A stretch of 64,000 nt of DNA, from NCBI GenBank assembly GCA_017619755.1, contig JAFZRU010000030.1:19189-83188 (forward strand), written 5' to 3'. Under the pieces are notes generated by a model. It had not been told where the DNA came from. It saw only the letters and a program-made list of their open reading frames with translations, and searched no databases. A program made the position numbers and the translations under genes. Within the stretch, counting starts at the first letter, position 1; the number at the start of each line of letters is the position of its first letter. The DNA comes from Prevotella sp. (lineage in GTDB: Bacteria; Bacteroidota; Bacteroidia; Bacteroidales; Bacteroidaceae). Of the stretch, positions 10,612 through 22,395 are shown in pieces.

Positions 10612-11781
10612 TTAATCCCACACATATATCCAGTAGTCGGTCAGGATGGTCATCCACACCGAACTCATCTCGCGCAGGATGTAGTATTGCACGCTCTCCC
10701 CGCCGAAGAGGCGTATGTAAAGTTCCAAACCCTCGTCGGTGGCCACGATGCAGTGGATTTCAGGGGCGTGCTCCATGAAGTTGCCCTCGTCATCGACAAA
10801 CCATATCGACTGGTCTTCGTCGCCGGCTGTTCCATGGAATTCCCAAGTGGAGACCACTTCACCCTCAGCTATGCAGACGAGAGCCGCCAATGCGTCTTTG
10901 CCTTGGTGCTCGAACTGCACGGCATAGAACGAGCGTTCCGCCGTCTCTACGGAGGCGAGCCATCGGCTTTCCTTGATGCGGCGGCCGCCGTAGTAGTCGC
11001 TGATGAGGCGGCATGCGTATTCTCCGGCTTTTTTTATTGGCTCGCCATCCTTCCATCTGCTGTATTGCAGCAGTATGTGGTGGTCGAAGAAACTGTTTTT
11101 CACCACCCAGGGGCATATTTCCACGTCGTTGTAGCCGCGAAACATCTTGGCCACGATGGAGGGGGTGTTGAGTTTGAAAGTGTAGTTCATGTTGTCCTTC
11201 AGCACCGTTCCATTCTCATCGACTTTCTTGTCTGGGTTCTGTGAAGTTAACCGCACGCTATTCTTGTGGGGCTTGAAAATCATTTGGTTGTATGCCTTGA
11301 TGTCGGCGATGCGCTCGGGGCCTTCCACCACCGTCTTGAAGATGTTGGCGTTCTTGGAGGCTTCGCGCACGGGGAGAGGTCGCTCGCGCAGGGTGATGTC
11401 GTTGGCGGGTGTCTTTGAACGGCCGAGGTCGTTGAGGTCGCGCCAGTAGATTTCTTCGGACAGCACGTTCTTGCCCACCACTTGTGCCTTCAGGTTGTTG
11501 CCGGAGGGGGTGAGCATCACCATGGACTTTTCATCCATTGTGGAGAGAAGGAGTGCATAGCCTAAGGGTGAGGCTTGCTGTTGTGGCAGGAGGCAGTATT
11601 TCTGTGGATGGATGGTGGTGCCGGCAAAGCTGTTCTCAAAGTGCATGATGGCTGCCTCGCACTTGTCGGCATACCATTGATTGGCCTTCGTTTCTCTTTC
11701 GTAATCGTCCTGGGCCTGCAGGGCGGTTGTGATGGACAGCAAGGCTGTCAGCGTGATGATGATTTGCTTGAGGTGTCTCAT
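10612..11781 (-). CDS. Secreted protein of unknown function
   Basis: The 389-residue protein starts MRHLKQIIITLTALLSITTALQA, a signal peptide with cleavage before QDD. The rest is soluble, aromatic and acidic, with no motif I know. I reject an upstream start at 11814 because it falls inside a 16-bp hairpin and adds a hydrophilic stretch before the signal peptide. It is the last gene of a same-strand series with PqqD-like, S26-like and HprK-like genes and may be exported cargo or a partner of that system, but this rests only on position. Confidence 0.7.
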   Translation of the reverse strand: MRHLKQIIITLTALLSITTALQAQDDYERETKANQWYADKCEAAIMHFENSFAGTTIHPQKYCLLPQQQASPLGYALLLSTMDEKSMVMLTPSGNNLKAQVVGKNVLSEEIYWRDLNDLGRSKTPANDITLRERPLPVREASKNANIFKTVVEGPERIADIKAYNQMIFKPHKNSVRLTSQNPDKKVDENGTVLKDNMNYTFKLNTPSIVAKMFRGYNDVEICPWVVKNSFFDHHILLQYSRWKDGEPIKKAGEYACRLISDYYGGRRIKESRWLASVETAERSFYAVQFEHQGKDALAALVCIAEGEVVSTWEFHGTAGDEDQSIWFVDDEGNFMEHAPEIHCIVATDEGLELYIRLFGGESVQYYILREMSSVWMTILTDYWIYVWD

Positions 11782-11854: not shown

Positions 11855-12142
11855 TTACGGCTCTACGATTTCGGCCTCCAACCATTTCTGTACGAGGGCC
11901 TCCACGTCTGCTCTCACCGCGTTGGGGTCGAGCGGACTTTCGTCCTCATTCTGATAGTTTTCCACCAAAAGCTTCACCAGGTCGTCGATGGTGAATTCCT
12001 TTCCGCTGACTTTTTCCCAAAGGAAGGCGGAGGTCTCGTTCATGCTGATGACGTTGGTGTAGTCGATGTTCTCTTTTCCCTCTGCTACCATGATCTGCTC
12101 ACCGCAAATCTCGCGCAGGGCGAATCCTGTCTTTGCTTTCAT
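11855..12142 (-). CDS. PqqD-like peptide-recognition protein
   Basis: The 95-residue protein has the PqqD fold pattern: N-terminal strands with GFALREICGEQIMVA, a central ISMNETSAFLWEKVSG motif, then helices rich in DDLVKLLVENY and ADVEALVQKWLE. PqqD-type domains are RiPP recognition elements that bind leader peptides for a modifying enzyme. Here no radical-SAM partner is adjacent. Instead the neighbours are an S24/S26-like protein, whose stop overlaps this start as ATGA, and an HprK-like kinase. This three-gene arrangement suggests a peptide or protein modification pathway. Family assignment is good. The substrate is unknown. Confidence 0.82.
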   Translation of the reverse strand: MKAKTGFALREICGEQIMVAEGKENIDYTNVISMNETSAFLWEKVSGKEFTIDDLVKLLVENYQNEDESPLDPNAVRADVEALVQKWLEAEIVEP

Positions 12143-12783
12143 TGTTGTCTATTATTTATGGTTGTTTGTTTTTTTTTGCCGTATTTTGCCACCAACTCGT
12201 CGATGGCTTCTTGTTTCAGGGGTGGGTATGCCTTGAGCTTGAAGATGTTGAGCCATCCATAGCGGTAGGCAAGGAGGAGCCAGCGGCGCATGAAGGTGAA
12301 TTTCACCCAGAACCAGGAGTAGGCCTTCCATTTCAAACCGTCGGTTCTGTCCACTTTCAGTCGGCCCTTGCGGATGAAGCCGATGACCCCGCAGCGGAAG
12401 TCGGAGGTCTTGCAGTATTCGCAGCCGAAATTGCCATCGCCCATGAGGGTGACGTCGTCGTCTTCGATTTTCATGATGCGATGCAGCACATAATGCCCTT
12501 TCTCTATCTCTGCAAGCACGGGGTCGCCCACTTTCACTCCTTCCGGCGTGGTGAAGATGGCCAGGTCGCGTTCGTTTTCCAAGAAGGGCCGCATGCTGTT
12601 GCCTCTCAGGCGCAGGGTGCAGGTCTTGCCTTTCTGCACATCTTCGATGAGCAACGGGAATAGAATGGCGTTGGGGATGGGGACGTTGTTCTCCAACCCT
12701 CTGTCCACGGAGCGGTTACCACCGTCGTGGCGTCTCACCCTGGCCACGATGCGGTCACTGAAGGTTTTGGGTTCTTTTGGCAT
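12139..12783 (-). CDS. S24/S26-family peptidase-like protein
   Basis: The 214-residue protein contains the S24/S26 signature GNSMRPFL near residue 60, with a catalytic-type serine, then strands DLAIFTTPEGVKVGDPVLAE and HYVLHRIMKI, and a GDGNF turn, as in signal peptidase I and LexA-like proteases. The lysine of the Ser-Lys dyad is not obvious in the usual place (LHRI where type I peptidases have a K or R region). It has no clear N-terminal membrane anchor, and the C-terminus is basic and aromatic (KFTFMRRWLLLAYRYGWL) and may touch the membrane. It sits between the HprK-like gene (10-nt gap) and the PqqD-like gene (4-nt overlap). A role in releasing a leader peptide is inference. Confidence 0.75.
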   Translation of the reverse strand: MPKEPKTFSDRIVARVRRHDGGNRSVDRGLENNVPIPNAILFPLLIEDVQKGKTCTLRLRGNSMRPFLENERDLAIFTTPEGVKVGDPVLAEIEKGHYVLHRIMKIEDDDVTLMGDGNFGCEYCKTSDFRCGVIGFIRKGRLKVDRTDGLKWKAYSWFWVKFTFMRRWLLLAYRYGWLNIFKLKAYPPLKQEAIDELVAKYGKKKQTTINNRQQ

Positions 12784-12793
12784 GGCTGGCAGG

Positions 12794-13693
12794 TTATTTC
12801 ACTGCGATGGCGGCGTTGCACACCTCTGCCGCTTCCCTGTTGGGTAGGCAGTGGAGGATGCTCACCTTGGTTTTCTGAACGATTTTCGACACGGTGTCAC
12901 CCACGCGGTGGTAAGTGGGTACATCCCATTTGAGGGAGGAGCACGATGGCAGCACGGAGGTGAATGCCTCGATGGGTGAGAGCGGCTCCACCCAGTTGTG
13001 GTCATCGCGGTCGATGCGTGTGAGAGCTCCCAAGGGAGCCTTGATGTTTCGGTAGCAAGGTGTCTTTCCACTCCATGGGCTTCCATAAATGTATGGCTTT
13101 CCGTCAATGACGCGTATGACGGGGTTGTCGTCGTTCATCAGGTCGCAACCGGGGAGGAAACGCAGCCACATGCTCACTTGTGTGGACTTTCCCGTTCCAC
13201 TGATAGCGTGGAAGGCGTATCCGTAACCGTTCTGTCTCACCAACGATGCGTGTATGAGGACGGTGTCCTTGAAACTCCCTGCCACGGCATAGCTGAGCAT
13301 CATGGCATTGTGTATGCCGAAGCTTCGCATATCGTAGTTGCCGGTGAGTGCGCATTTCACTTGCTTTCCATCTGGTGTGATTTGAAACATGCTGCATTCG
13401 ATGCCTTGCATGTCCTTGAAGATGAACTGGTGTCCTCCCACTTCCAGTTCGTCCACGATGATGCTTCCGTTGCCGGTTTCAAACTCCCTGATGCGCTCCC
13501 TTTGTGCTTTGGGAATGGGTTTGAGGTCGTCGTCGATGGTGATTTCGAAAAGCAGTTCATGACCTTCTGCACTATCCACCAGGAAGGGGTAGTATGAGCG
13601 CATCAGGTTCATGTTGTTGTGCTTGGTGTCAAGGAAATTGACTTTCACATAGTGTTCGCCTATGCAGAAAAACCTTGTTTCTTGATTGTTCAT
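12794..13693 (-). CDS. HPr-kinase-like P-loop protein
   Basis: About 299 residues. A P-loop AISGTGKST lies in the middle, followed by DLMNDDNPVIRVIDGKPYIYGSPWSGK, which matches the HprK/P C-terminal kinase domain (Walker A, then the acidic ND..D segment and the GSPW loop). The N-terminal half is unlike classical HprK. HprK phosphorylates a serine on a small protein. In RiPP-type clusters, HprK-like proteins are linked with PqqD-like proteins. I start at the ATG at 13693. The longer frame begins with TTG inside the upstream stop. The gene is part of a tight unit with the S26-like and PqqD-like genes. Confidence 0.8.
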   Translation of the reverse strand: MNNQETRFFCIGEHYVKVNFLDTKHNNMNLMRSYYPFLVDSAEGHELLFEITIDDDLKPIPKAQRERIREFETGNGSIIVDELEVGGHQFIFKDMQGIECSMFQITPDGKQVKCALTGNYDMRSFGIHNAMMLSYAVAGSFKDTVLIHASLVRQNGYGYAFHAISGTGKSTQVSMWLRFLPGCDLMNDDNPVIRVIDGKPYIYGSPWSGKTPCYRNIKAPLGALTRIDRDDHNWVEPLSPIEAFTSVLPSCSSLKWDVPTYHRVGDTVSKIVQKTKVSILHCLPNREAAEVCNAAIAVK

Positions 13694-13716: not shown

Positions 13717-14271
13717 TCAATGGCGGGGTGGGATGGTCGGGGGCAGCTCGTCGCCGTTAGCGGCGCGCTTCGAGGACTCCAATGTCCCGCTCTTTTTCTT
13801 CTTTTTCGATTTCTCCGCCCGCTTGGCGGCTTTGGTGTCGATGGTTGTCTCTTCGGCCCCCTCGTGATGCTCGGCTGTGAAGCGGAACTCCTCCTCGTCA
13901 AGGATGCGAATGTCGTAGTTGCTGGGACGCTTCTTGGTGCCGTTGAATTTTTTGCGCATCTTCTCGTATTTCTTCAGGATGTCTTTCTCCTTGGTGGCGA
14001 AGCTGACGAGGCAAGTGCGTGCGTCGAAGCCTCTGCCGGAGAAATGACTTTTCAGTTGGTTGGAGTAGTTGGAGCGACCTTCCAAGAAGCCGGTCTTTTC
14101 GTCCACCCATGCGCTGTCGAGAATTTGTATCTCAGTGATATAGACCACGGAGTCGTTGAACGATGCCGAGGTGCCGAAGATGTAGATGGGTGTGCAGCGC
14201 ACCTTCCCCACAGCCGCGATGCTCGTCAGCATTATGGCTCCCAAGACGATGGCTAAAAATGTTTGTCTCAT
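13717..14271 (-). CDS. Secreted basic-tailed protein of unknown function
   Basis: The 184-residue protein has a signal peptide (MRQTFLAIVLGAIMLTSIAAVG), a middle region with TPIYIFGTSASFNDSVVYITEIQ and CLVSFATKEKDILKKYEKMRKKF, and a lysine-rich tail (KRAEKSKKKKKSG) ending in prolines. I recognise no domain. It lies 41 nt after rpoD and 23 nt before the HprK-like gene on the same strand. The ATG at 14271 is preferred over a TTG one codon earlier. Confidence 0.72.
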   Translation of the reverse strand: MRQTFLAIVLGAIMLTSIAAVGKVRCTPIYIFGTSASFNDSVVYITEIQILDSAWVDEKTGFLEGRSNYSNQLKSHFSGRGFDARTCLVSFATKEKDILKKYEKMRKKFNGTKKRPSNYDIRILDEEEFRFTAEHHEGAEETTIDTKAAKRAEKSKKKKKSGTLESSKRAANGDELPPTIPPRH

Positions 14272-14312
14272 CAATGGTTTTGTCTTTATACCTTAAAAAA
14301 ATGCCCCATGGC

Positions 14313-16868: not shown

Positions 16869-17206
16869 GACCCAATTTTTGTTAATCTGCCATTTCACCC
16901 CAAATATTTGTCCTCTTTTAACAATCATTCTATTCCTATTAACTATCATTTGGTTGTTTTAAATACTATTTTACGTTTCTTCACGTCATGCAAGCCTTTG
17001 TTGGCATGTCATTTTGTCACTCCTTTTCTGTCTTTTCAACTATGGTGGCTTGGCATGGACTGTTGATGTGTCGCAAATGGTACAAGGAAGGTGTTGAAAT
17101 GGTTCTTCGCTCCTTGGAAAGGGGTGGAGGTGTTATAAAAATAGGTAAAAGTCAAGTCGAAATGTTTTTTTCCCGATTTTCAGCCCATTGTTTCGAAATT
17201 TTTTCA

Positions 17207-17214
17207 TATTTTTG
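17207..17214 (+). promoter_or_regulatory. -7 box of the C10 protease gene
   Basis: TATTTTTG fits the consensus. It lies inside the longest open frame, which shows that translation starts downstream, at 17237 or 17255. Confidence 0.6.
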
Positions 17215-17254
17215 TCGGTCAATATTACTATTCCTAATGGAAAATGTTTCCGAC

Positions 17255-20200
17255 ATGAGAAAAAAGGTAACGACATCCCTTCTTCTGCTATGGGTCGCCA
17301 CGACACTCGTGGCGGGTCCTGTCACCCGGAGCCAGGCTTTGGGCAAGGCGAAGGAGTGGGTCGCCCGTTTTGCCAAGAACGGTGCGTCGGAACGACTCTC
17401 ATGCAAGGCAGAACGGGTGGACAACCTGCCATGTTATGCTTTCGACATCGGACAAGGCGAGGGGTTTGTCATCATGGCCGGTGACGACCGTCTTACTTCC
17501 GTTTTGGGATATGCCGAAACCGGCAGTTTCGACTTACAGGCCATGCCCCCGGCTCTGAAGGCGTGGCTAAGGGCTTGTGGGGAGGAGTTGGAAGGTCTCG
17601 ACAATGGTTCTGACGGTGCGGCCTCCCGCCCCGTCAGGGTGGTGGAGCATACGCGTGGTGCCATTGCTCCGATGGTGTCCTGCACGTGGAACCAACAGGA
17701 GCCTTACTCCAACAACTGCCCTGATTTCAAGAATGAGGGGAAGTGTGCCACCGGTTGCGTGGCTACTGCCATGGCTCAGTTGTTGTATTATTACCGAGAC
17801 CAAAACGTGAAAACCATCCAGGAGGCCATCGCCTCTTACACATGTGCCACCAACTGGTCGGGATATGGCAAGATATCCGTTCCGGGGGTGGCCAAAGGCA
17901 CGGCTATTGACTGGGACCACCTCCTTGCTGTGTATAACGGAACGGAGACAGCGGAGGAAACGGAGGCAGTGGCCAATCTGATGTTTTATTGTGCCGCATC
18001 CGTCAAGACGGAGTTCATGGGTGCTTCCAGCGGAAATTCCTCCGCCAGCAATAACAACATCCCCATTGCCTTGAAAAAACAGTTTGGCTTCTCCAAAGAG
18101 TGCTGCCTCAAGGATCGCTCCACATTCGCCATCTCTCAATGGGAGGAGATGGTTTACGATGAGTTGAAGGCCGGTCGCCCCGTCATTTACACAGGAAGGT
18201 CGGAGAGCGTCGCTCATTGTTTTATCGTGGATGGATACGACGGCGACGGTCTCTTCCATATCAATTGGGGATGGGGAGGGCTATACAACGGCTATTACAG
18301 CCTCTCCACCCTTTCGTGCGTGGAAGGCAGCACCACCAAGGGCTATACCATGTCGCAGTACGCCATTTTCGGTGCGCGACCGGCGGGGGCTGCTGACGAG
18401 TATGCTACGTTGTCTGCCTCCGGCTTGTCTCTTTCCGGCTCCACGCTTTCCTTCACCATGACCAACTATTCTGGCGTGGCCGACAATTTCAAGTTCGGAG
18501 TGGCCGCCGTGCTTGACGACGGCTCACTCGCATTGCTCAAGCAGTCCTCTTCCTACATTTATATGGCTGACAGGACCAAGCGGTCTGTCTCCTTCACATT
18601 GGCGAAGACCAACTTGTCTTCGCTTCAAAAGGGAGAATACCGGGTGGCCCCCGTCTTCTGCCGCAAGGGTGACGATGAGTGGAAGTTGGCTGACTGTTCT
18701 CTTGAATATTCTTTTTGGCTCTTGTGGGACGGCTCTACATTCACCCTGTCATACAACTCACCCAACAGCGGGAGGGTGTTTTCTGCTTCCGGTTTCCAAT
18801 TCCCCGCCAATCCCGTGAAGGGGATGAAGGTGCCGGTGAGCATGACGCTCTCGTGTTCCAGCGGTGAGTACAGTAGCGAGGTGTATCTCTTTGCCAGCAC
18901 CACAACTACAGCCACCACTTATGATAGCAAGACCGGCGTGTATCTGAAGGATGGCGAGCAATGCGACGTCTCCCTCTATTTCTCGCCGACGAAAACAGGC
19001 ACCTACAACGTATGGGTGGCCACTGACGCTAATGGCCAGAATTCCATCGGGTCGTGTAAGATAAAGGTGACAGAGGCCGGCACGGGGGGCGAATTGTCTG
19101 TTGCGAGTTTTACGGTGGACAACGCTGTGACTTCCGGAGAGTGGAACACCGTTTACGGCAAGGTGCTACAAGGCACCATCACGCTCAAGAACATAGGATC
19201 CTCGCTGTATTCCGAAATCATCACCATCTGGCTCATGAAGGGCGCCACCAAGAGTTATTATTTGGGAAGCACCAGCGACAAGCAACTCATCACGTTGGCC
19301 CCGGGTGAGAGCACGACCATCCACTACGCCTACGATGAAGGTGAGACTGGCAACTATTACCAATTGTGGCTGATGAAGGGAAGTGCCATCATCACCAACG
19401 GAAAGGTGAGGTTTTTCGAACTGGTGCCTTGCGTCACCATTTATGACAGCGAGGGACGTTACACGATGGTGAAGCCGACGAAAACCTTCACCGTGCCACA
19501 GGATGCGACAGCCATTGACCTTGATGGTGCCGGTGTGAGTACCGTGAAGCCCAACAGCAACCCCAACACCTTGTATTTCATAGGGGGGACCGACGCCACG
19601 CCTTCTGGTTTGAAGGGATGTAACTTGGTGAAGGCCGGCGTGGCGGAGCGAGTGACGCTTTCCGATGGATACGATTTCTTCACCCCCATGGGTTTCCATG
19701 CTGCTGACATCTCCTACACTCGCACGCCTCAGCTGCAGACATCGGGCAAAGGCGGTTGGGAGACGATAGTGCTGCCCTTCCCCGTGGAGGAGGTGACCAA
19801 CGTCACCGACGGGAGGGTCATTGACTGGTATCACAGCTCTGATGATATCGGCAAGGATTTCTGGCTCAAGGAGTATGCTTTACAGGATACGGAGAGTGGA
19901 AAGGTGTTTTTCAACCATGTGGAACAGTTCCGCCCGCATGTGCCTTACATCATCGCCGTGCCTTCCGACAGATGGGGCGAGGATCACGACCTCACCGGAA
20001 AGAAACTGCGCTTCCATGCCACGGACGTGGAGGTGGGGGCCGATGCCAAACTCATGGTGACGTCGAGTGTCTATCGCTTCGAAGGCACTTACGCGGAGAC
20101 AGCGATGGACAACATCTACATTCTCAACAGCCAAGGCTCTTCGTTCATATACACAGCACAGTCCGTTCTGACACCATTCAGGGCATGTTTCCGACCGACG

Positions 20201-20404
20201 GGGGGAAGCGTGGCTCATTCCTCCTTGGCCATCGGCGACTTCTCCTTGGCAGACGGTGTCGAGGAGGTGGAGTGCATGGCTCCATCGGTGGACATTTACA
20301 GCATCAGTGGTATGAAAGTGGCCACGATGGACGGCACCAACGGATTGGCCGGTCTGCCCAAGGGGGTGTATGTGGTGAATGGACGGAAGCGGGTGGTGAG
20401 ATGA
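17255..20404 (+). CDS. C10-family cysteine protease (streptopain-like) with sorting tail
   Basis: About 1,049 residues. A signal peptide (MRKKVTTSLLLLWVATTLVAG) is followed by a prodomain with TRSQALGKAKEWV, as in Spi/C10 propeptides. The C10 peptidase domain has the catalytic cysteine in CATGCVATAMAQLLYYY near residue 167 and the catalytic histidine in AHCFIVDGYDGDG near residue 320, followed by FHINWGWGG. Several beta-rich modules follow, and a C-terminal tail DIYSISGMKVATMDG...LPKGVYVVNGRK resembles type IX secretion sorting domains. Homologues are secreted proteases of oral and gut Bacteroidales related to SpeB, interpain and periodontain. An in-frame ATG at 17237 is an alternative start. 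Confidence 0.9.
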   Translation: MRKKVTTSLLLLWVATTLVAGPVTRSQALGKAKEWVARFAKNGASERLSCKAERVDNLPCYAFDIGQGEGFVIMAGDDRLTSVLGYAETGSFDLQAMPPALKAWLRACGEELEGLDNGSDGAASRPVRVVEHTRGAIAPMVSCTWNQQEPYSNNCPDFKNEGKCATGCVATAMAQLLYYYRDQNVKTIQEAIASYTCATNWSGYGKISVPGVAKGTAIDWDHLLAVYNGTETAEETEAVANLMFYCAASVKTEFMGASSGNSSASNNNIPIALKKQFGFSKECCLKDRSTFAISQWEEMVYDELKAGRPVIYTGRSESVAHCFIVDGYDGDGLFHINWGWGGLYNGYYSLSTLSCVEGSTTKGYTMSQYAIFGARPAGAADEYATLSASGLSLSGSTLSFTMTNYSGVADNFKFGVAAVLDDGSLALLKQSSSYIYMADRTKRSVSFTLAKTNLSSLQKGEYRVAPVFCRKGDDEWKLADCSLEYSFWLLWDGSTFTLSYNSPNSGRVFSASGFQFPANPVKGMKVPVSMTLSCSSGEYSSEVYLFASTTTTATTYDSKTGVYLKDGEQCDVSLYFSPTKTGTYNVWVATDANGQNSIGSCKIKVTEAGTGGELSVASFTVDNAVTSGEWNTVYGKVLQGTITLKNIGSSLYSEIITIWLMKGATKSYYLGSTSDKQLITLAPGESTTIHYAYDEGETGNYYQLWLMKGSAIITNGKVRFFELVPCVTIYDSEGRYTMVKPTKTFTVPQDATAIDLDGAGVSTVKPNSNPNTLYFIGGTDATPSGLKGCNLVKAGVAERVTLSDGYDFFTPMGFHAADISYTRTPQLQTSGKGGWETIVLPFPVEEVTNVTDGRVIDWYHSSDDIGKDFWLKEYALQDTESGKVFFNHVEQFRPHVPYIIAVPSDRWGEDHDLTGKKLRFHATDVEVGADAKLMVTSSVYRFEGTYAETAMDNIYILNSQGSSFIYTAQSVLTPFRACFRPTGGSVAHSSLAIGDFSLADGVEEVECMAPSVDIYSISGMKVATMDGTNGLAGLPKGVYVVNGRKRVVR

Positions 20405-20452: not shown

Positions 20453-20488
20453 ATTAATAAGGAAATATGAATTAATAAGGAAATATGA
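20453..20488 (+). repeat. 18-bp tandem duplication of a start region
   Basis: Two identical copies of ATTAATAAGGAAATATGA (20453-20470, 20471-20488) carry the AAGGA-like signal and an ATG. The second ATG (20485) starts the phosphoesterase gene. The first opens a two-codon frame that stops at once. A partial third copy (ATATGATAAGGAAATTAT) precedes them. Confidence 0.8.
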
Positions 20489-22395
20489 AAATTGGAATAT
20501 TCAAGATGGTGGCTGTTGTCGCCATGGGGTGGTGCTCCATGCATGCCGGAGCACAGCAATTGTCAATGAGCGGAAACAAGGAGTCGTTTGCACCGGGCGA
20601 TGACATAGCCATCAACTACGAGGGTGCCGCCAAGGGCGACAAGATACTGCTCTATCACAACTTGGCCATGCTTCCCTTGAAGGAGAAGGGTGTGACGGCA
20701 GCCGACAAAGGGGTGTATCAAGTGGCTGCCCCGCTTCAGTTTGGCGACTACCGGGCTGTCCTGGTGAACAAGGACGATATGGAGATGTCGCAGGTGTCTT
20801 TTGTCGTGGAGGAAGAACCGCTTCCCACCGAGGGTCATCGGGTCTGCCTTCTTTCCGACATACACGTGTTGAATCCCGAATTGGTGGAAAATCTTGACAA
20901 CTATTATTTCGTGAGGGAAATGGGCAACAACAGGAAATTGCAGGTGCAAAGTTATGAGATTTTTTGCGCTTACATCGACACCATCAAGGCGCTCAAGCCG
21001 GAACTGCTGCTCATCCCGGGTGACTTGACGAAGGATGGGGAGGTGCTCAGCCATCAGTGCGTGGCACAGAAATTGCAGGAACTGTTCGACATGGGCATTC
21101 CCACCCTCGTCATCCCCGGCAACCATGACATGGAGAACGAACAGGGTTTTCACTACACGATGGACGGGCGTGAGAATGCAGAGACAGCCACACCGGAGAC
21201 CTTCGAGCAGATATACTGGAATTTCGGATACAAAGACCCCCTCGCACGCGACCCCAACTCCTTGTCATACGTCTGCGAACCCATCGATGGGTTGCGCTTC
21301 ATCGGCATCGACGACTGCCGCATCCCCAGCCGTGGCGATACGAAAAAGGGCATTGCCGAATATGGACGCATTCTTCCAGAGACTTTGGAGTGGGTGTTGG
21401 AGCAGGCCGACAAGGCCTCTGATGAGGGGAAGGTGGTGATAGCCGCCGTGCATCACCAGATGCTGCAGCACTACGTGGACCAGGAGAAGCTCATGGAGAC
21501 CTCCGCCACGGAGAAAGGCGACAGCATTGCCCGTCTCTTCGCCGACCACGGCATCAGGGTGGTGCTCACAGGGCACATGCACATGCCCGATGTCTCCAAA
21601 ATCAAGGGCTTCACCACAGACAACACCATCACCGAAATCAGTTCCTCATCCCCCATATCCTATCCCAGCCAGTTCCGCGTGCTGACCATCAGCAACGACT
21701 TGGCCACCATGAGGGTGGATACGCGCTCGTTGAAAGCCACGGAGAGCCTCCCCAACCTGCAACAGGCGGCAAAGGATAAAATCGATGAGACGCTCGATAC
21801 TTCCATCAGCCAACTCACCTACCGTTACATGTCCACTTTCAACGCCATGCTCAAGGACTTGGCTTCCATTCCCGACTTTGCCCACATCATTGACGACGTG
21901 CCTACGGATGTCAACGAATTGTCCGCCATTGCTTTGGAGGCGTTTGGAGAGACCTTGCGCAAGGTGATTTACACCCACGCGGAGGCCAACGAGCATCTCA
22001 AGGATGCCGCCAAGGTCGTCCTCGAACAGTTGGAGGATGACTGCGACACGGCTTGCAATCTCATTTTCGACCAGCAGAACGAGAGCACACGCGCTTTCCT
22101 TTCATACGCCATGTATGGATACATGCTTGAAATGGGAGAGCCGGCCATCAAGAGCATGCTTAGCGACACCTCCTATCTTGGCACGTCGATGGCCGACCAG
22201 ACCGACGATCTCTACCTCACCGTCGCCTTGAAGGACGTGGATGAAGGGGTGGCGTCGGTGCTGGCGCATGGGGAGGGCATCAAGGGCGTGTACAGCATTA
22301 CTGGTCAAGCAGCTGGAAATTCGGTGGCTGGCTTGCCCAAAGGTGTTTACATCGTATGGAAGGACGGGAAGGCTCGTAAAGTGACGGTGAAGTGA
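20485..22395 (+). CDS. Secreted calcineurin-like metallophosphoesterase with sorting tail
   Basis: The 636-residue protein has a signal peptide (FKMVAVVAMGWCSMHAGA), an N-terminal beta domain to about residue 110, then a metallophosphoesterase domain: LLSDIH (about 124), PGDLTKDG (about 180), PGNHDMEN (about 212), AAVHHQ (about 331) and LTGHMHMPD (about 361), supplying the two-metal ligands. A helical region follows. The last 40 residues, GVYSITGQAAGNSVAGLPKGVYIVWKDGKARK, match the sorting tail seen in three other places in this window. Likely an exported phosphodiesterase or phosphatase. The substrate is unknown. The gene follows the C10 protease by 80 nt. Confidence 0.88.
   Translation: MKIGIFKMVAVVAMGWCSMHAGAQQLSMSGNKESFAPGDDIAINYEGAAKGDKILLYHNLAMLPLKEKGVTAADKGVYQVAAPLQFGDYRAVLVNKDDMEMSQVSFVVEEEPLPTEGHRVCLLSDIHVLNPELVENLDNYYFVREMGNNRKLQVQSYEIFCAYIDTIKALKPELLLIPGDLTKDGEVLSHQCVAQKLQELFDMGIPTLVIPGNHDMENEQGFHYTMDGRENAETATPETFEQIYWNFGYKDPLARDPNSLSYVCEPIDGLRFIGIDDCRIPSRGDTKKGIAEYGRILPETLEWVLEQADKASDEGKVVIAAVHHQMLQHYVDQEKLMETSATEKGDSIARLFADHGIRVVLTGHMHMPDVSKIKGFTTDNTITEISSSSPISYPSQFRVLTISNDLATMRVDTRSLKATESLPNLQQAAKDKIDETLDTSISQLTYRYMSTFNAMLKDLASIPDFAHIIDDVPTDVNELSAIALEAFGETLRKVIYTHAEANEHLKDAAKVVLEQLEDDCDTACNLIFDQQNESTRAFLSYAMYGYMLEMGEPAIKSMLSDTSYLGTSMADQTDDLYLTVALKDVDEGVASVLAHGEGIKGVYSITGQAAGNSVAGLPKGVYIVWKDGKARKVTVK

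Follow-up and report, generated by a model that had tools for sequence, protein, structure and literature searches.

HprK-related kinases are paired with PqqD-like proteins in HPr-rel-A (TIGR04352/TIGR04353) and in SynChlorMet (ScmC/ScmD), as the names of these protein models indicate. Radical-SAM RiPP clusters are another setting in which PqqD-like proteins occur. Lasso peptide clusters have also been described that bring together a YxxP leader, a PqqD-like B1 protein, an HprK-like kinase, a nucleotidyltransferase and an ABC exporter (PMC8498205, PMC10368454 and PMC7533575). In the bsf lasso cluster, the kinase phosphorylates Ser3 of the core with the help of the PqqD-like B1, and the leader motif YxxPxL spans positions -17 to -12 (PMC10368454). 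Replacing the Tyr, Pro or Leu of this motif in BsfA by Ala did not stop phosphorylation, and cleavage was impaired only when all three had been replaced (PMC10368454). Precursors of the paeninodin type are phosphorylated at a C-terminal Ser by HPr-kinase homologues, and in pseudomycoidin a nucleotidyltransferase adds hexoses (PMC8498205); rumen lasso leaders such as MKKDWTIPTLEVLDINMTMA precede a Gly (PMC7533575).

We analyzed a cassette encoding an HprK-like kinase, an S26-type peptidase and a PqqD-like protein in a Prevotella sp. genome. It resembles the phosphorylated lasso clusters (paeninodin, pseudomycoidin, Bradymonas bsf) in its YxxP-type leader, PqqD-like B1 and HprK-like kinase, and some of them, e.g. 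the pseudomycoidin type, in the nucleotidyltransferase and ABC exporter found near the cassette (PMC8498205 and PMC10368454). Unlike lasso clusters, the cassette includes an S26-type peptidase and, in Prevotellaceae, is accompanied by many dispersed putative precursors. Like HPr-rel-A and ScmC/ScmD, it pairs a PqqD-like protein with an HprK-related kinase, yet the proteins encoded here fall far below the TIGR04352, ScmC and ScmD cut-offs. A word-based search of mostly non-subscription literature, which is no proof of absence, found no published description of the cassette or of its peptide family.

The window, the whole stretch of 64,000 nucleotides that was analyzed, comes from a genome (G000) of 3.7 Mb in 67 contigs that is 86% complete. 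Behind an rpoD-like gene (a label given by eye), the minus strand carries, in this order:

13720..14274 (13717 with the stop codon), minus strand: upstream secreted-looking protein, 185 aa
12797..13693, minus strand: HprK-like kinase, 299 aa, ATG start, stop codon at 12794-12796
12142..12783 plus stop codon, minus strand: S26/S24-like peptidase, 214 aa, PF00717
11858..12142 plus stop codon, minus strand: PqqD-like (RRE) protein, 95 aa, PF05402
10615..11781 (10612 with the stop codon), minus strand: downstream secreted-looking protein, 389 aa

The initial annotation had proposed that the three central genes are translationally coupled or nearly so and that a secreted protein follows, and the layout agrees. 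The HprK stop and the S26 ATG are 10 bp apart, the S26 stop and the PqqD start codon overlap in ATGA, and the 389-aa protein begins with an ATG at 11781, 73 bp past the PqqD stop. On the other side, the 185-aa gene ends 23 bp upstream of HprK. The cassette had also been described as lacking a radical-SAM enzyme. This holds at the window, where none was present among the eight neighboring proteins scanned, in contrast to radical-SAM RiPP clusters, but it does not hold for all relatives: we distinguish type I, the rpoD-linked cassette, from type II, which is more remote (within the genus, identity is about 32-38%), and in genome G007 a type II cassette stands behind a radical-SAM gene, a second PqqD and a Cys-rich peptide with the family's leader, which recalls such clusters.

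No Pfam family exceeded its cut-off on the window kinase. Its NCBIfam matches, to HprK_rel_A (E 1.6e-4) and ScmC (E 0.0023), were both far under cut-off (20.9 bits against 200 for TIGR04352 and 17.3 against 125 for ScmC). One type II relative gave a sub-cut-off match to Pfam Hpr_kinase_C (E 2.3e-4); at E 0.01, Pfam matched none of 34 family members. Residues conserved in 84 type I and 14 type II copies are SGTGKST (165-171), NDD (187-189), G204 and P206-T211; P212 is nearly conserved, and most of GSPWSGKT is kept. The closest named kinase, at 92% identity, belongs to the uncultured Prevotellaceae isolate RUG13814 (among the best 80 of 289 confirmed). Across the analysis, PDB sequence searches gave no match in three cases and a single match, at E 1.7, in one; ubiquitin-like PDB matches, at E 0.14 and above, were taken as chance.

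The S26/S24-like protein matches PF00717 at E 7.4e-6 and, below cut-off, the NCBIfam archaeal-type signal peptidase (E 0.0011). Ser63, His101-Arg102 and GDGN (115-118) are kept in 84/84 type I and 13/13 type II copies. We take Ser63 and His101 to be a catalytic pair of the SipW/Sec11 type, and the Ser...His-Arg...GDGN set presumably corresponds to the residues of SipW/Sec11-type signal peptidases and of the Ni-SOD maturation protease. Unlike these enzymes, the S26 protein is linked to PqqD and a kinase and has no membrane span by hydropathy: the highest 19-residue value in the window protein was 0.78, and the maximum exceeded 1.6 in 4 of 97 copies. The PqqD-like protein, whose motif alignment held 79 type I and 14 type II copies, matches PF05402 at E 1.7e-13. 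Against the lasso B1 model it reached E 0.085, and the second PqqD of the G007 region 1.3e-12, both below cut-off; its ScmD score was 17.6 bits (cut-off 100), and TIGR04353 gave no entry for it. Elsewhere in the source genome (L050, G000:C43, 7281-8036 and 8146-8678) lies a fused S26-PqqD with a lipoprotein-like start and two tandem short peptides ahead; the fusion matches sod_Ni_protease at E 5.3e-6, below cut-off.

Do the three genes belong together? We compared 80 named Prevotellaceae loci found by their kinase, which are the best 80 of 289 confirmed. All 80 have the upstream secreted gene, HprK and S26 together on one strand; 75 have PqqD, two of them with it on the other strand; rpoD is present in 72 and htrA in 63. 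Gene families that recur downstream of the cassette lie mostly on the opposite strand. Across the order, the 1.5-kb flanks of 30 loci, which take in the window's own locus, one genus-mate and the profile-seeding genomes G043 and G054, contained S26 in 24 cases, PqqD in 20 and either in 28, with varying gene order. The genes are thus not seldom neighbors. We conclude that HprK-S26-PqqD is a real, conserved unit and not a chance grouping, and the peptide-modification role first suggested for it fits.

In the 13 genus genomes that had neither kinase nor peptide hits, rpoD followed by the secreted gene was kept every time, and no cassette genes were seen beyond this rpoD-linked secreted gene. Because the G141 contig ends at the secreted gene, 12 of the 13 show the site. 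PF05402 was found in 0/13 of these genomes and in 4/4 kinase-only genomes. Since rpoD and the secreted gene persist without the cassette, the secreted gene belongs with rpoD, and we rejected the 185-aa protein as a substrate or cassette member. The cassette is an optional insert beside the rpoD/secreted gene pair.

Around type II-like cassettes, similarity clusters placed an ABC transporter beside the cassette in 11 of 15 regions and a nucleotidyltransferase-like gene in 5 of 15. Pfam confirmed one of each (PF00664/PF00005 and PF14907), and the rest were assigned by similarity. The corresponding counts were 13/19 and 8/19 in order-level regions with a recognized kinase; one further region had no kinase call and falls outside the 19. 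In the source genome itself, a second HprK-like gene, 24% identical, directly adjoins a PF14907 nucleotidyltransferase (L051, G000:C56, 8326-10371). A search of 28 genomes for the lasso B2 transglutaminase-like leader protease, PF13471, gave matches over cut-off in two, each on a different contig from the cassette, and weak ones below cut-off in 4 more; none was found in the source genome. Judged by this B2 family search, the cassette fails a defining lasso feature, and we regard it as an apparent variant of RiPP-type peptide maturation, lasso-related in its logic, in which S26 may replace the lasso leader protease.

The first lead to a precursor-like peptide came from G007 (locus L044), where the type II cassette stands behind the radical-SAM gene, the second PqqD and a Cys-rich short ORF. 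Its leader is that of a family of peptides dispersed over the genomes. This leader led to profile A1, of four rows, and then to A2, of 34 leader pieces; profile A6, of five rows, represents another peptide type. At E 0.1, 132 of 149 genus genomes had A2 hits, from 1 to 31 each, some of the weaker ones perhaps by chance; the source genome has 6 peptides at E 0.01 and 9 at E 0.1. We read 126 different peptides from fetched loci (four loci gave none), with the consensus MKKxYxxPxMxVVxL...(L/I)LAGS and an acidic C-terminus. Two without a YxxP-like anchor were left out of the counts. In the other 124, Tyr stands three residues ahead of Pro in 121, at a position where the anchor pattern allowed nine residues, and a Ser lies 15-17 residues past Pro in 119, in a set biased to the best profile hits. 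A [ACVSTMLI]G[ST] site occurs in 70 of the 124, with Pro 14-15 residues before the residue preceding Gly in 69 of these; in shape these peptides resemble the bsf and rumen lasso leaders.

Perhaps the Ser after LLAG is a universal phosphosite? We rejected this, because peptides of the source genome break the pattern, reading VLDS, VLEGG, VLAPG, ILANT or ICEPS at that position, and the 126-peptide set is biased to best hits. A C-terminal [ST]-hydrophobic-Trp, present in 8 of 54 type I and 0 of 58 type II peptides, was likewise too weak to count as a phosphosite specific to one type. None of the 34 leader pieces and none of 8 whole peptides matched Pfam. Three NCBIfam families each matched one of the 34 leader pieces (best E 0.0048), which we took as chance, and the paeninodin family weakly matched 1 of 5 cis-type peptides (E 0.042).

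The source genome's tandem pair upstream of the fused S26-PqqD, on a contig other than the window's, has its last 23 residues in common and differing leaders. That 23-residue end carries five synonymous codon changes and no others, and the codon preceding it differs in residue. Family-wide, the motif Pro, Val, Leu, Ser and Gly each use 4 to 6 synonymous codons, with Tyr mostly TAT; with codons this varied, it is the peptide that is conserved and not a DNA element. Four close peptide pairs showed 10 synonymous and 16 non-synonymous changes, no sign of strong purifying selection overall.

Do peptides and kinase occur in the same genomes? The genus sample (n = 149) held 127 genomes with both, 13 with neither, 4 with kinase only and 5 with peptide only (Fisher 1e-11). 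In G182, one of the peptide-only genomes, a short contig carries a PqqD at its end. An rpoD tree of 35 genomes, itself poorly resolved, grouped those with neither into two clades plus one genome. The genus tree requires 4 kinase changes and 8 peptide changes, and an independent-pairs test on it gave 1 supported pair (4 on all branches), which is not significant. We conclude that the genus-level agreement rests on few evolutionary events. In the order sample of 295 genomes, in statistics that treat genomes as independent, all 11 A2-positive genomes were among the 40 kinase-positive ones (7.6e-11; by genus 1.4e-7). A6 was positive in 25 of the 295, 19 of them with a kinase. For A2 and A6 together, 26 of 32 peptide genomes had the kinase (Fisher 1.2e-21), and 19 of 25 did when seven seed genomes were removed (4.4e-16). 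The six order-level peptide genomes without a kinase were searched at a looser kinase threshold, applied to them only: two lie just below threshold, G278 and G289 have weak matches, and G309 and G416 have none. Fourteen of the 40 kinase genomes had no peptide hit.

That no short precursor is visible near the cassette, as the initial annotation remarked, is correct for the window, where no family member was found at E 0.05, but short ORFs of this family do occur at other places in the genome and, in other bacterial families, next to the kinase. The 80 named loci (best 80 of 289) contained one peptide at E 0.05, at L124, 10 kb from the kinase. Family-like ORFs with weak A1 scores lie at L111, L122 and L136; that of L122 (7426-7602, A1 E 5.6) precedes a type I kinase by about 2.3 kb. 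In 5 of 15 type II-like regions a peptide lies no farther than 2.5 kb from the kinase; three of the five had seeded A1, and one has its peptide on the opposite strand.

In 10 genomes from eight other families, a peptide ORF shares the strand of the kinase and lies at most 1 kb upstream: G188, G208, G236, G248, G283, G294, G316, G333, G334 and G375. Four of these (G236, G248, G333, G375) are A6 seeds and the other six are not. The ORF was read in G333, G236, G248, G375, G334 and G283 and located by coordinates in G316, G208, G294 and G188. The G283 peptide has no ATG in the stretch read, and those of G333 and G236 were first recognized by eye because A2 missed both. The order is PqqD-peptide-HprK-S26 in G248, G333, G375, G334 and G283. 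In G368 a peptide and a fimbrillin-like lipoprotein precede the cassette, and in G388 the peptide lies 3.6 kb after the kinase.

Within the genus, most peptides are encoded at a distance from the cassette, often next to a secreted or surface protein gene, so that one cassette would serve many. We compared 75 non-duplicate loci drawn from the best hits, 8 overlapping duplicates of 83 having been dropped. A large same-strand ORF ends within 150 bp upstream of the peptide in 39 of the 75, with a CTD-like end (...KGLYIxNGKKVxxK) in 30 of the 39. Downstream, a large same-strand ORF starts within 150 bp in 30 of the 75 and is lipoprotein-like in 23 of these. In all, 52 of the 75 loci have a CTD-like or lipoprotein-like neighbor, by patterns that were written after looking at the data and that 23 and 57 of 1041 background ORFs fit, respectively. 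Scans of 10 neighbors gave fimbrillin-like PF13149 in two, in one case below cut-off. In the source genome, one peptide stands between a C10 peptidase with PF13734 and a CTD-like gene. The window also encodes two large proteins (16988-20404 and 20485-22395) with CTD-like ends, ...LPKGVYVVNGRKRVVR and ...LPKGVYIVWKDGKARKVTVK.

We favor, at odds of roughly two to one, the reading that the cassette works in trans as a unit that matures short ribosomal peptides, as sequence comparison suggests. The PqqD-like RRE would hold the precursors by their leader, MKKxYxxPxxxVxxL, as the YxxP motif and PqqD homology suggest. The HprK-like protein would phosphorylate a hydroxyl residue, most simply the Ser after -LLAG- where there is one, by analogy with phosphorylated lasso peptides, and the S26-type peptidase would remove the leader near the small-residue site, A|GS or GS|. 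A fuller version is less likely than not: a single PqqD-kinase-S26 unit, a lasso-type set without the lasso enzymes, might mature as many as some 30 phosphopeptides scattered over the genome, the majority encoded together with a surface protein as partner (a fimbrillin-like lipoprotein or a CTD-bearing secreted protein) and acting with that partner at the cell surface.

Could the large secreted protein at 10612-11781 be the substrate instead, as was proposed at the outset? It directly follows the cassette on that strand, but a relative was present in only 1 of the 80 cassette loci (best 80 of 289), and the protein itself has no Pfam or NCBIfam match at E 1. We find this scarcely credible; dispersed short precursors explain the cassette better than the large neighbor does. 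A true lasso peptide system, its cyclase and leader protease encoded in trans, would account for the parts shared with described lasso clusters and for the weak paeninodin match of one cis-type peptide. Against it, PF13471 was rare, off the cassette contig where it passed, and missing from the source genome, which makes such a system very improbable.

The peptides might also serve the neighboring surface proteins while the cassette acts elsewhere, the two sharing genomes by common descent. The 52 of 75 loci with a CTD-like or lipoprotein-like gene alongside are what this would predict, and genus co-occurrence does collapse to a few events on the tree. Peptide ORFs beside the kinase in eight other families, and the kinase in 26 of 32 order-level peptide genomes, speak for a link between peptide and cassette, and we consider separate roles unlikely. 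Similar doubt attaches to the proposal that the HprK-like protein does something other than phosphorylate peptides, whether transferring another group, acting on a carrier or serving exopolysaccharide export. The kinase does lie below all curated HprK cut-offs, its 34 members went unmatched by Pfam, and polysaccharide-export-like or glycosyltransferase-like genes, labeled by eye, lie near the cassette or its kinase in 4 of 35 regions (L040, L048, L380, L381). The P-loop and acidic motifs, however, are conserved in 98 copies, and we think such a function improbable.

On the maturation-unit reading, a widespread Bacteroidales cassette gains a concrete set of candidate substrates, and a small-protein family without a Pfam model is linked to maturation machinery. 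It points to phosphorylation of the peptides as central and not accessory, and it suggests that Prevotellaceae produce numerous small, modified peptides connected with surface proteins.

Two observations concern relatives of the cassette. The G007 region (L044, 8838-12287, and L045), with radical-SAM, PqqD-, HprK- and S26-like genes and a short precursor-like ORF, is a candidate for a doubly modified RiPP. Relatives of the kinase are also encoded on phage contigs from human fecal samples, MT835698.1 (14243-15115; 31.6% identity) and MT835590.1 (26660-27094; 34.0% identity).
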